From assembly GCF_900162815.1 (NCBI RefSeq), contig NZ_FUGD01000087.1:1-64000 (forward strand): a stretch of DNA of 64,000 nucleotides. Direction: 5' to 3'. Shown here in pieces: positions 58,849 to 63,291 of the stretch. The notes under the pieces are model-generated. The model was not told where the DNA came from. It was given only the letters and a program-made list of their open reading frames with translations, and did not search any database. The position numbers were made by a program, and so were the translations under genes. The stretch's first letter is position 1; every line of letters starts with the position of its first letter. This stretch comes from Psychrobacter pasteurii (lineage in GTDB: Bacteria > Pseudomonadota > Gammaproteobacteria > Pseudomonadales > Moraxellaceae).

Positions 58849-59271
58849 TTAAGCTTTTGGCTCTAAATCTATCGCCACAGAGTTAATACAGTATCTAAGG
58901 CCTGTGGTCTCTCTTGGCCCATCTGGGAACACATGACCTAAATGCCCGCCACAGTTACTACAAGTTACTTCAACTCGGCGCATTCCATGAGAAGTATCTA
59001 AGTGCTCATCAATTGCTAACTCGTCAATAGTGGCATCGAAACTTGGCCAACCACAGCCGGCATCAAACTTATTGTTTGAGTCAAATAGCTTGGCGCCACA
59101 TCCTTTGCAGCGGTAGATACCCTGCTCACTCATATCATTATGAATGCCCGTAAAAGGACGCTCAGTCCCTTTCTCACGTAGCACAAAATACTCTGAGTCA
59201 GTTAAACGCTCACGCCAATCGGCTTCTGTTAATTGGGCTATCTCTTCTTTGGTTAACTGTGAATCTTGCAT
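58849..59271 (-). CDS. msrB: Peptide methionine-R-sulfoxide reductase MsrB
   Basis: MsrB reduces methionine-R-sulfoxide in proteins. Four zinc cysteines are in CKGCG and [12 protein letters not shown]; the catalytic cysteine is in RYCINSVAI, and CGCGWPSF is typical. 140 residues, single domain, without a fused MsrA. Confidence 0.95.
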
Positions 59272-59650: not shown

Positions 59651-59671
59651 AATGCAAGATTTACTTGCATT
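59651..59671. promoter_or_regulatory. Palindromic operator candidate 1 upstream of the XRE-aminotransferase
   Basis: AATGCAA-N7-TTGCATT, perfect half-sites (in fact AATGCAAG-N5-CTTGCATT), 117 bp before the start codon. It lies directly upstream of a candidate -35 (TTGATA, 59679-59684). Confidence 0.7.
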
Positions 59672-59694
59672 TAGACTATTGATAAACAAATAGG

Positions 59695-59715
59695 AATGCA
59701 ATAATATCTTGCATT
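59695..59715. promoter_or_regulatory. Palindromic operator candidate 2 upstream of the XRE-aminotransferase
   Basis: A second AATGCAA-N7-TTGCATT, 44 bp after the first (about four helix turns). Its spacer holds TAATAT at 59702-59707, 17 bases from TTGATA, so it would cover the -10 of that promoter. Confidence 0.7.
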
Positions 59716-59787
59716 AGCTAATAAGGTTTATTTTACTAGCTTAGCAATAATAATCATGACCCTTTTAATACTTAGAGAGTAGTCGCT

Positions 59788-61419
59788 ATGAGTGAGCAAT
59801 CTGAATACAAAGCTCAAGGAGAGAGGCTTAGTAAGCTGCGTAAAGCCAAAGGATTAACTGCAGAGCAGCTGGCCACTGCCATGACAGACGCTGGCTCAAA
59901 AGTTAGCCGTGGCGCCATATCAAATTGGGAACGGGGCATAAACGGCATTGTCTCCTCAAAGCTTCCCGCTCTGGCAACTATTTTAGGCTGCTCTGAAGGC
60001 TATTTACTGCGTGGTGAACTGCCAGACAGCCCTTCTAATTCAGCTGATTATTCCGATTCTTTAGCCGCTGAAACTCAAGTTTCTACCAATTCCCAGTCTT
60101 CTAATCAAAGCACGAGTAACCGTACCATGACCAATACAGCCCCTACCCCCGCTCGCCAACCTTTAAAAAAATCTGACAAACTACAAAACGTCTGCTACGA
60201 CATCCGTGGTCCTTTATTAAAGACAGCGATGCAGATGGAAGCTCAAGGTCAAAGAATTTTGAAGCTAAACGTGGGCAACCCTGCTCCCTTTAATCTAGAT
60301 GCGCCTCATGAAATCTTACAAGATGTGGCGCTAAATCTGCATAACGCAACCGGTTATTCAGACTCGCAAGGTATCTTCTCAGCCCGTAAAGCGGTGCTGC
60401 AGTATTATCAATCAAAAGGCTTGCTATCTGCGGTCGATGTGCGTGATGTCTATCTAGGTAATGGGGTGTCAGAGCTTATTGTCATGACCATGCAGGCTCT
60501 GATGAATGATGGCGATGAAGTGCTTATCCCAATGCCAGATTATCCTTTATGGACTGCAGCGGCTAATTTAGCAGGCGGTACCGCAGTTCATTATCGCTGT
60601 AATGAAGATCAAAACTGGCAGCCAGATATTGAAGACATTCGCTCGAAGATTACCGATAAAACTCGCGGTATTGTAGTCATTAACCCAAATAACCCCACAG
60701 GTGCGCTTTATTCCAATGAAGTGTTACTAGAGATTCTTGAACTGGCACGTGAATACAACTTGGTAATCATGGCAGATGAGATTTACGACCGTATTTTATA
60801 TGATGACGCAGTTCATACGCCAATGTGTACACTGGCCCAAGACGTTTTAATTCTAACTTACAACGGTCTGTCTAAGTCACACCGTATTGCCGGCTTCCGT
60901 GCAGGTTGGTTAATGCTATCAGGTAATAAAGAGCATGCCAGCGACTTCATCGAAGGCTTAGATATGCTCGCCTCAATGCGACTGTGTGCCAACGTGCCCG
61001 CTCAACATGCCATTCAAACGGCAGTGGGTGGCTATCAAAGCATGCAGGACTTAACCGCTGAATCTGGTCGCTTGTATAAGCAGCGTCAATTGGCAGTTGA
61101 GCGTCTAAATGCCATCCCAGGTATTTCTTGCACACTACCACAAGGGGCCTTTTACTGTTTCCCTAAACTAGACCGCACCATCTATCCTATCGAAGATGAT
61201 ATGCAGTTTATGATGGACTTATTAATTGAAGAAAAAGTACTAATGGTCCAAGGGACTGGGTTTAACTGGGACGCACCTGATCATTTCCGTGTGGTCTTCC
61301 TACCTAACTTATTTGACTTAGAAGATGCTATGGACAGATTAGATAGATTCTTTGCCGGTAAACGTAAAGAATTTGGTACTGAGCATTTGGTTGAGTCTAA
61401 GCAAGAAAAAACCGCTTAA
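59788..61419 (+). CDS. alaA: XRE-type DNA-binding domain fused to AlaA-type aminotransferase
   Basis: 543 residues in two parts. Residues about 10-75 form an XRE/Cro-like helix-turn-helix (RLSKLRKAKGLTAEQLATAM, then GAISNWERGINGI). A Ser/Asn/Thr-rich linker runs to about 135. The rest is a fold-type I PLP enzyme closely resembling E. coli AlaA (glutamate-pyruvate aminotransferase), with VINPNNPTGALYS, ADEIYDRI and the PLP lysine K363 in LSKSHRIAGFRAGW. Alanine synthesis from pyruvate and glutamate is the likely reaction. The fusion suggests it also binds DNA; two palindromes upstream are candidate targets. Single gene, ended by the terminator at 61470. Confidence 0.9.
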   Translation: MSEQSEYKAQGERLSKLRKAKGLTAEQLATAMTDAGSKVSRGAISNWERGINGIVSSKLPALATILGCSEGYLLRGELPDSPSNSADYSDSLAAETQVSTNSQSSNQSTSNRTMTNTAPTPARQPLKKSDKLQNVCYDIRGPLLKTAMQMEAQGQRILKLNVGNPAPFNLDAPHEILQDVALNLHNATGYSDSQGIFSARKAVLQYYQSKGLLSAVDVRDVYLGNGVSELIVMTMQALMNDGDEVLIPMPDYPLWTAAANLAGGTAVHYRCNEDQNWQPDIEDIRSKITDKTRGIVVINPNNPTGALYSNEVLLEILELAREYNLVIMADEIYDRILYDDAVHTPMCTLAQDVLILTYNGLSKSHRIAGFRAGWLMLSGNKEHASDFIEGLDMLASMRLCANVPAQHAIQTAVGGYQSMQDLTAESGRLYKQRQLAVERLNAIPGISCTLPQGAFYCFPKLDRTIYPIEDDMQFMMDLLIEEKVLMVQGTGFNWDAPDHFRVVFLPNLFDLEDAMDRLDRFFAGKRKEFGTEHLVESKQEKTA

Positions 61420-61469: not shown

Positions 61470-61502
61470 AAAAAGAGGGGCTAATTTAGCCCCTCTTTTT
61501 TT
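61470..61502. terminator. Bidirectional terminator between alaA and glnS
   Basis: AGAGGGGCTAA and TTAGCCCCTCT form an 11-bp stem with a 1-nt centre, flanked by long A and T runs on the two sides, serving both converging genes. Confidence 0.92.
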
Positions 61503-61527
61503 TGTTGCTTAAAACTTTAGCTGAATA

Positions 61528-63291
61528 CTACTGCGGCTTATAGTTATCTCGTAAGCTAACAATTTGGTTAAATACCGGTTTATCCGCCGTGTGTTCTTCT
61601 GAATCTGCCACAAAGTAACCTTCACGCTCAAACTGGAAGCGATTGCCCGCTTCAGCATTGGCCAGTGATGGCTCTACTACCGCTTCAAGAACAGTTAATG
61701 AGTTCGGGTTTAAGGCATCATGAAGATCTGGCACGGCACTTGGGTTTTCTGCTGAGAATAAATGCTCATATAAACGCACAGTAGCTGGTACGCCTTTGGT
61801 TGCAGACACCCAGTGAATGACTCCTTTAACCTTGCGGTCTTCTGGGTTTTTACCCAAAGTGGTCTTATCGATAGTGGCTTTTAACTCAACCACATTCCCT
61901 GCTTCATCTAGCACATGCTCAGTCACTGCCAATACATAGGTGTTACGTAAGCGGATTTCTGGCTTTTCAGGAGACAGACGCTTGTAGCCTTTTGGTGGCT
62001 CAAGTTCATAATCGCCTTGATCGATATAAATGGTTTCAGTAAATGGAATTTCACGCTCGCCCATATCAACGTTAGGGTGCTTAGGCTGATTAATCCATAA
62101 GGTTTTTTCAGCCTCATCCCAGCGGGCATTCACGCCATCATCTTTTAAGCTTTCCCACTCACTCAGCGCTTCATCAAAGTTCGTGATGGTCACTTTAAGA
62201 GGTTTTAGCACAGCCATGCCACGTGCCGTTGTGTTCTCAAGTGATTGACGGATACTAAATTCAAGCAAACGGAAGTCTACAACGCTGTCTGACTTAGTCA
62301 CACCCACACGCTCACAGAAGTCACGCAGACCTTCAGGGGTATAACCACGACGACGCATACCTGCAATAGTCGGCATACGCGGATCATCCCAACCGGTTAC
62401 GATACCTTCATCAACCAACTGCTTAAGCTTACGCTTACTGGTCATGGTATGGTCAACGTTTAGACGGCTAAATTCGTACTGATGTGGAGGATATTTAATT
62501 CCGCCTTCAACCCCAACTTTTTCAACAGCCCAATCATAAAACGGACGGTGATCTTCAAACTCTAAGGTACAAATTGAGTGAGTAATCCCTTCAATGGCAT
62601 CTGATAAAGGATGAGCAAAGTCATACATGGGATAGATACACCACTTATCACCCGTTTGGTGATGTGACTGATGCATAACACGGTAGATCACCGGATCCCG
62701 CATGTTCATATTTGGGCTAGCCATATCAATTTTTGCACGTAAAACAGCTTCACCTTCAGCGTACTTACCGTTTTTCATGTCGTCAAAACGTTGTAAGTTT
62801 TCTTCTACACTGGCATCACGCTGAGGAGAGGGCTTACCTGGCTCATTAAATGACCCTCGGGTTTCACGAATCTGTTCTGGCGTTTGCAAGTCCACATAAG
62901 CGTCGCCTTGCTTAATTAGCTTAATGGCCCACTCATGTAACTGATCAAAATAATCAGAAGCATAGTAAGGCTTGTTCGCCCACTCAAAGCCAAGCCAAGT
63001 CACATCTCTTTTGATGTTATCGATATAATCTTGTTTTTCAGCAGTTGGGTTGGTGTCATCAAAGCGTAAGTTACAAATACCTTCAAACTCTTTGGCCACA
63101 CCAAAGTTTAGGCAAATAGACTTCACGTGACCCAAATGCAAGTAGCCATTTGGCTCTGGCGGGAAACGAGTGATAATCTGCTGATACTTATCATTGGCAA
63201 CATCTTCACGGATGATATGACGAATAAAATCGTTTTTTTGATCCTCTTTGAGCTCAGCTGAGGCATTCGCTTTATTATTTTCAGTGCTCAT
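61528..63291 (-). CDS. glnS: Glutamine-tRNA ligase GlnS
   Basis: Class I synthetase charging tRNA-Gln. FPPEPNGYLHLGHVKS is the HIGH region, the MTSKRKLKQLV segment is the KMSKS equivalent, and LRFDDTNP is family-typical. 587 residues, about 30 longer than E. coli through an N-terminal Asn/Lys-rich lead. Single gene converging on alaA. Confidence 0.96.
   Translation of the reverse strand: MSTENNKANASAELKEDQKNDFIRHIIREDVANDKYQQIITRFPPEPNGYLHLGHVKSICLNFGVAKEFEGICNLRFDDTNPTAEKQDYIDNIKRDVTWLGFEWANKPYYASDYFDQLHEWAIKLIKQGDAYVDLQTPEQIRETRGSFNEPGKPSPQRDASVEENLQRFDDMKNGKYAEGEAVLRAKIDMASPNMNMRDPVIYRVMHQSHHQTGDKWCIYPMYDFAHPLSDAIEGITHSICTLEFEDHRPFYDWAVEKVGVEGGIKYPPHQYEFSRLNVDHTMTSKRKLKQLVDEGIVTGWDDPRMPTIAGMRRRGYTPEGLRDFCERVGVTKSDSVVDFRLLEFSIRQSLENTTARGMAVLKPLKVTITNFDEALSEWESLKDDGVNARWDEAEKTLWINQPKHPNVDMGEREIPFTETIYIDQGDYELEPPKGYKRLSPEKPEIRLRNTYVLAVTEHVLDEAGNVVELKATIDKTTLGKNPEDRKVKGVIHWVSATKGVPATVRLYEHLFSAENPSAVPDLHDALNPNSLTVLEAVVEPSLANAEAGNRFQFEREGYFVADSEEHTADKPVFNQIVSLRDNYKPQ

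Follow-up and report, generated by a model that had tools for sequence, protein, structure and literature searches.

A probable self-repressing alanine aminotransferase of Moraxellaceae whose fused DNA-binding domain and promoter motif occur together

Why should an alanine aminotransferase carry a DNA-binding domain, and what has this domain to do with the two palindromes in front of the gene? The question is raised by a locus in the window analysed here, a stretch of 64,000 nucleotides of Psychrobacter pasteurii DNA (assembly GCF_900162815.1, contig NZ_FUGD01000087.1, positions 1 to 64,000). An initial annotation had seen an XRE-type helix-turn-helix (HTH) domain, a Ser/Asn-rich linker and a complete AlaA-like enzyme in one frame, and the 543-residue open reading frame, Pfam and the match to the AlaA structure 4cvq bear this out. 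The elements of the locus are as follows.

59651–59671, unstranded: O1, predicted upstream operator AATGCAAGATTTACTTGCATT, an exact palindrome.
59679–59684, plus strand: -35 element TTGATA, 17 bp ahead of TAATAT.
59695–59715, unstranded: O2, predicted operator AATGCAATAATATCTTGCATT covering the -10 element, an exact palindrome near-identical to the genus consensus.
59702–59707, plus strand: -10 element TAATAT inside O2, from sequence inspection.
59788–61419, plus strand: XRE-AlaA fusion gene, 543 codons plus stop, ATG start; HTH and AlaA share one frame.
59830–60006, plus strand: XRE/HTH_3 DNA-binding domain, residues 15–73 (Pfam HTH_3, E 3.7e-7; P22 C2 repressor, E 6e-4).
60022–60159, plus strand: Ser/Asn/Thr-rich linker, residues 79–124.
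60127–60129, plus strand: in-frame ATG (Met114) near the ancestral AlaA start, a possible internal start.
60148–61362, plus strand: AlaA-type PLP aminotransferase domain, residues 121–525, catalytic Lys363 (4cvq, E 3e-176).
61475–61505, unstranded: probable terminator hairpin AGAGGGGCTAATTTAGCCCCTCT followed by a T run, common to the convergent gene; from sequence inspection, with no tool score.

The window protein scored 30.5 bits with HTH_3, above the Pfam cut-off of 23, and the solved structure nearest to its head is that of the P22 C2 repressor; HTH_31, HTH_19 and HTH_26 were the other HTH families listed up to E 1. Aminotran_1_2 matched residues 157–507 (E 3.9e-58), and E. coli AlaA was the best match in the PDB. 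Among the 25 best NCBIfam models listed, none reached its cut-off with this protein, the top one being PRK08363 (358.6 bits versus 534). The active-site residues were taken from those given for the E. coli enzyme in part of PMC4094517, and the 4cvq alignment revealed that all eight of those checked are retained: E. coli Lys240, Asn179, Tyr210 and Arg378 correspond to Lys363, Asn302, Tyr333 and Arg501 in the window, and Ser105, Tyr129, Ser239 and Arg248 to Ser228, Tyr252, Ser362 and Arg371. We infer from this sequence that XRE-AlaA is a working alanine aminotransferase. One match to the window AlaA at E 1e-30 or better was found in its own genome, and the fusion gene seems to be the sole AlaA there. 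A mis-called start, or a separate upstream gene in relatives, was ruled out as the origin of the N-terminal part: the HTH lies in frame and is on average 73% identical to its counterparts in 12 orthologues (AlaA domain, 81%), whereas the linker, about 45 residues in the window and of differing length among orthologues, shares only 12%. By inspection, the gene is flanked by a divergent msrB-like gene (58849–59271), 516 bp away, and by a convergent glnS-like gene (61528–63291), with which it shares the probable bidirectional terminator.

Both predicted operators are exact copies of the 21-bp pattern AATGCAA-N7-TTGCATT, with starts 44 bp apart and a gap of 23 bp, and the second lies over the -10 element of a TTGATA-N17-TAATAT promoter, just as the initial annotation had described. 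Its further remark that O1 abuts the -35 element applies in the window, where 7 bp separate the two; this arrangement is not conserved, the O1–O2 start distance varying from 44 to 92 bp between species. With up to two mismatches allowed, two matches in 64 kb are not unusual, since 21 of 100 shuffled sequences reach this number. The operator pair carries weight because both copies are exact, are the sole exact matches in the genome and are conserved. A scan of the complete 2.94-Mb genome for the 21-bp site, as had been proposed, was also used to look for a larger regulon; it returned no exact copy beyond O1 and O2. The only one-mismatch site elsewhere (C60:10266) is located within an open frame whose beginning resembles that of a lipoprotein (L003). 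At up to two mismatches, 20 places matched versus 8 for a reversed-pattern control, and XRE-AlaA may have weak further targets among such sequences.

Scanning 60 Psychrobacter genomes, that of P. pasteurii included, for the exact pattern yielded 59 copies in 45 genomes and none in the other 15; 58 of these copies are found 57–782 bp ahead of the alaA match, with G025:C132 as the one exception. The reversed control pattern gave two matches in the same genomes. Promoters were compared in a set of 118 loci, 87 of them distinct, from which L103 was dropped as too short and L126 omitted on account of its record being named Streptomyces. An O1-type plus an O2-type site (TGCAA-N7-TTGCA, at most one mismatch) was present in 83 of the 87 distinct promoters; mononucleotide shuffles gave 0.008 matches per promoter. 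Most orthologue promoters thus keep the palindromes, contrary to the concern that these might be missing there. Both sites are degenerate in L062, only O2 is present in L119 and L123, and neither in L081. This last locus, from Psychrobacter immobilis Liston1000, has lost both operators. Upstream of a point about 60 bp ahead of the gene, its sequence no longer agrees with that of the related locus L080, and the contig stops 182 bp ahead of the gene; the promoter looks as it would after an insertion. The omitted record, named Streptomyces cinereus JCM 3040, holds an XRE-AlaA of Moraxellaceae type and is probably a mislabelled or contaminated assembly; L126 and L169 may be one sequence.

The gene itself was present in 100 of 100 Psychrobacter genomes searched, and the fusion is ancient and widespread in this group. 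The first aligned stretch spans the HTH in 89 of them and starts in the linker in 11, despite a long frame (566–618 aa) in these; for G020, one of the 11, the HTH was listed as a separate stretch. The initial annotation had proposed looking for pairs of XRE and aminotransferase domains across Moraxellaceae, and XRE-AlaA was found in Psychrobacter and in genera g7, g8, g10, g14 and g16. Outside Psychrobacter, the TGCAA-N7-TTGCA core (at most one mismatch) precedes 20 of 27 XRE loci, mostly in one copy. No clear core was seen in the other seven (L048, L049, L051, L136, L137, L138 and L166), which include the sole loci read of g8, g14 and g16.

We consider it very probable that XRE-AlaA is both a functional alanine aminotransferase and a dedicated repressor of its own gene, and that the same loop has been rebuilt by exchange of the head. 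The proposal that the gene represses itself through the fused HTH is well supported by sequence comparison, since the operators are conserved, nearly single-target and change with the domain. We infer DNA binding, repression, dimer geometry and enzyme activity as follows. The enzyme dimer would hold two HTH heads on flexible linkers, which could bind the palindromes O1 and O2. Protein bound at O2 would block RNA polymerase, because this operator covers the -10 element, and O1 would add affinity via a second dimer or a loop of non-critical length. As the enzyme accumulates, transcription would drop, thereby keeping the amount of AlaA at a fixed point. The simplest such loop would be negative autoregulation through the concentration of the protein. 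In 63 of the 83 Psychrobacter promoters the -35 element is TTGCAT or TTGCAA, itself an operator half-site, so that a third head could bind there. TTG is kept at the -35 place in at least 79 of the 83, most commonly as TTGCAT.

Alternatively, the head could activate alaA from O1, or activate and repress depending on occupancy. O1 does lie upstream of the -35 element, as the site of an activator would. However, its start is 44 to 92 bp from that of O2 in different species (three promoters give a nearer partial match at 30) without a clear helical phase, phasing not being clearly supported by a Rayleigh R of 0.39 over 83 promoters and of 0.23 over distinct spacings, and the location of O2 over the -10 element is a repressing one. 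We therefore regard activation as highly improbable.

It is also conceivable that the protein senses a metabolite, as the initial annotation had it and in the manner of GabR or PutA. That is, substrate or the PLP/PMP state would shift the dimer and its heads and alter operator binding, so that transcription of alaA would be set by the supply of alanine. According to part of PMC4094517, AlaA switches between its PLP and PMP forms, and MocR proteins, which have an effector-binding fold type-I domain, are regulators according to the portion of PMC4944035 consulted, both of which would suit a sensor. No sequence feature of XRE-AlaA points to coupling, however, and tight allosteric coupling is doubtful because the linker is long and variable. 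The occurrence of different kinds of head on the same enzyme, described below, is likewise easier to reconcile with a tether than with the transmission of a conformational change. We hold a metabolite sensor to be rather unlikely; autorepression in which the protein counts its own copies would be the more economical loop.

To what extent is this arrangement peculiar to the XRE head? In a family-wide search, an AlaA match at E 1e-60 was obtained in 114 of 119 genomes, and N-termini were read for selected loci. At least five different N-terminal domains are found on the AlaA of Moraxellaceae and one further family.

Head a: XRE; Psychrobacter, g7, g8, g10, g14 and g16; Pfam HTH match.
Head b: StbA-like domain of 60 aa; Acinetobacter (g15) and g9; matches R388 StbA (7pc1) at E 4e-6 in a profile search.
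Head c: domain of 62 aa; g13; predicted lambda-repressor-like HTH, no sequence match.
Head d: domain of 79 aa; g11; nothing in Pfam or PDB above chance.
Head e: P22-Cro-like HTH; family f25 of the same order, 5 of 5 genomes; Pfam HTH, P22 Cro in the PDB at E 1e-7.

Head b is present in 43 of 60 Acinetobacter genomes, with a broken or cut frame in G203 (191 aa) and G215 (118 aa). Its AF2 model has a pLDDT of 81 and no Foldseek match with E under 5, and TALE matches in the profile search are repeat artefacts. Head c gave no Foldseek match with E under 1; it is predicted to be a lambda-repressor-like HTH because its model reaches a pLDDT of 92 and most of the 50 best matches listed are HTH domains of this type, at a TM of about 0.6. 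Headless alaA occurs within the family in the loci read of g2, g4, g5 and g6, in 17 of 60 Acinetobacter genomes and at one g10 locus. In the search for relatives of head b, the one annotated match to the Acinetobacter gene is named plain aminotransferase. A search of the order covered 145 genomes, 124 of which have AlaA, and 20 long-frame regions outside the family were fetched: four belong to f25 and carry the Cro-like head, and the other 16 were judged by eye to be chance open frames. At the level of the class, AlaA was matched at E 1e-100 in 40 of 369 genomes, and 15 regions were fetched, of which a 200-base piece (L268) was useless. In the 14 regions read, 10 from genomes of the class and 4 from the search of the order, no head was seen by eye.

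Several heads have relatives on mobile elements. Stand-alone relatives of head b reach 59% identity on Acinetobacter plasmids, and more distant ones occur on Psychrobacter and Moraxella plasmids. The best non-alaA relatives of head a are 48% identical in phages and 44% in plasmids, and head d weakly resembles (E 2e-3) hypothetical proteins encoded on small mobilizable plasmids. The heads may thus have been captured from mobile elements, the sequences of head b making the strongest case. The records of Moraxella phages Mcat18 and Mcat15 (L280, L281) hold a complete, unannotated XRE-AlaA gene in their first kilobases, then a reductase-like frame; here, host flank was probably included in the prophage record.

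Domain and motif are present or absent together, and most heads have their own conserved motif before alaA. For head b this motif consists of direct repeats. At least three AGCAA copies occur in 36 of 37 distinct promoters from Acinetobacter and g9, and a pair spaced by 11 bp in 34 of 37. The tandem pair AGCAAANAGNAAGCA has 49 copies in 60 Acinetobacter genomes, 40 at alaA and 9 elsewhere; of the 43 fused genomes, 40 have it at alaA (all but G199, G204 and G242), versus 0 of the 17 unfused ones. Forward AAGCAA was found within 400 bp neither in any of the 17 unfused Acinetobacter promoters nor in L132–L134, L172 and L173. The plasmid protein R388 StbA binds 9-bp direct repeats spaced by 2, as given in part of PMC3098194. 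Two small Acinetobacter plasmids (L278, L279) encode StbA-like proteins annotated as hypothetical, whose genes are preceded by GCAAA repeats at a spacing of 11 bp; the number of GCAAA pairs was reached by 0 of 1000 shuffles in either plasmid, and with the shorter GCAA by 12 of 1000 for L279.

Head c is associated with ATAGGNAATANCCTAT, of which all 7 g13 genomes with the gene have exactly one copy each, located at alaA; the reversed control gave two matches. The motif is lacking in two g13 genomes without an alaA match and before four unfused relatives. All 5 promoters of head d contain one or two copies of GACAGA, which is also present before one of four unfused relatives (L155) and is therefore weak evidence. 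Testing single promoters for inverted repeats in general gave no information on heads c and d, since the highest-ranking repeat mostly failed to exceed those of shuffled sequences; the motifs of both heads thus rest on conservation. Head e goes with a GTCAA-N6-TTGAC palindrome in 3 of 5 f25 promoters, missing in the other two, and a paired change from AAT/ATT to AAC/GTT keeps the dyad. Two tethered heads could thus be offered to a dyad (heads a, c and e) or to tandem repeats (head b), and such different site geometries could all work because the tether is loose.

A further alternative is that O1 and O2 serve another, trans-acting regulator, the fused HTH binding elsewhere or having another role. 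Conservation of the sites is strong in itself, and a different palindrome, ATAGATT...AATCTAT, which often adjoins a CGCTAG...CTAGC repeat, precedes 15 of 22 headless Acinetobacter-type alaA genes (e.g. among L206–L221 and L173), where it must serve something other than a fused head; another regulator may have taken over alaA in these strains. As for the operators, however, the type of motif switches with the fused domain, the motif is almost exclusively located at alaA and is not seen there in headless genomes (0 of 17), and the StbA-like head goes with direct repeats in the style of StbA. A separate regulator of O1 and O2 is thus improbable.

How often has the head changed? A tree of the AlaA core (IQ-TREE) was built from 77 rows, 73 of them different; the pairs L144/L236, L146/L232 and L147/L176 are the same gene twice. 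Heads c, d and e each form one supported clade, the f25 rows having long branches and an unsure placement. Head b needs four changes because unfused Acinetobacter sequences are nested within it, and the six head states together need nine. A single clade for all XRE rows was rejected (AU p 6e-7), one g8 XRE row falling outside. Judging from these sequences, the XRE head may be the original one, giving way later to b and d, or it may have been captured twice. Head loss coincides with repeat loss in 3 of 3 independent pairs, which are too few for significance (sign test, p 0.25) and for which the motif states were entered from promoter readings as equal to the domain states. Common descent explains part of the association between domain and motif.

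The initiation codon of the ancestral enzyme may also have been kept. A Met lies within 16 residues before the KSxKL motif in 103 of 104 distinct XRE-type sequences although the linker is unconserved, and in 24 of 34, 7 of 7, 4 of 4 and 1 of 5 sequences with heads b, c, d and e, respectively. The number of Met expected from the upstream linker is 0.16 for XRE and 0.26, 0.63, 0.00 and 0.11 for heads b to e. A G-rich stretch with a Shine-Dalgarno-like match of at least 4 nt precedes the last such Met in 37% of 102 XRE-type sequences. The corresponding figures are 9% for control codons, 17% for the 24 other Mets of the linkers and 8% for 36 true starts picked heuristically. The sequences in these Met and Shine-Dalgarno counts are related rows. 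The conserved ATG may be an internal start yielding a headless AlaA; alternatively, a constraint at the protein level on the MxxLKKS segment may have preserved the Met. An extended scenario would combine these points: AlaA acquired DNA-binding domains of different kinds several times, at least some with relatives in plasmids or phages, each time becoming a nearly single-target self-repressor with head and operator swapped jointly, and, in addition, most such genes make a headless second product that can enter mixed dimers and tune repression. We put this forward as a tentative proposal, slightly more apt to fail than to hold as a whole.

Taken together, the comparison suggests that head exchange rebuilt the same loop repeatedly in this group, most heads having their own promoter motif. 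Self-regulating enzymes have been described as single cases, and their origin is an open question. Here, one enzyme with at least five heads, changing operators and losses could make domain capture and operator gain traceable on a tree, and head plus site would provide simple two-part autorepression modules. The finding touches the widely studied genus Acinetobacter and raises the question of why alanine aminotransferase, of all enzymes, needs such a loop in Moraxellaceae. The architecture is probably already known as an annotation label, as the CDD cluster PRK13355, 'bifunctional HTH-domain containing protein/aminotransferase', presumably names it; no paper on the architecture or the label was found in the open-access literature.

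Among known systems, PutA of enterobacteria is closest in logic. PutA is a proline dehydrogenase with an N-terminal ribbon-helix-helix domain and a redox/membrane switch, which also controls putP. Like PutA, XRE-AlaA would combine metabolic catalysis with control of its own gene through a DNA-binding domain at the N-terminus; unlike PutA, it has an HTH_3 rather than a ribbon-helix-helix domain, and its exact sites lie almost only at alaA. E. coli AlaA (4cvq) matches the enzyme domain at E 3e-176 with eight of eight checked residues, but is devoid of such a head, the match being limited to residues 121–525. P22 C2 and Cro represent the nearest HTH families of the Psychrobacter and f25 heads, respectively, and are phage repressors without an enzyme domain. 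R388 StbA (7pc1) is related to the Acinetobacter head and binds repeats around the promoter of its own operon, as described in part of PMC3098194, whereas it is a plasmid stability protein unfused to an enzyme. MocR-type regulators such as GabR and PdxR share the order of N-terminal DNA-binding domain, linker and fold type-I aminotransferase-like domain, according to part of PMC4944035. Their residual activity is an open question in the same part of that source, with no significant catalysis shown in a few cases. Membership of XRE-AlaA in this group was rejected, no GntR family being among the HTH families listed by Pfam up to E 1. The contrast with MocR drawn at the outset therefore stands: the head is an XRE-type HTH and not a winged helix of GntR type, and the active-site residues are kept.
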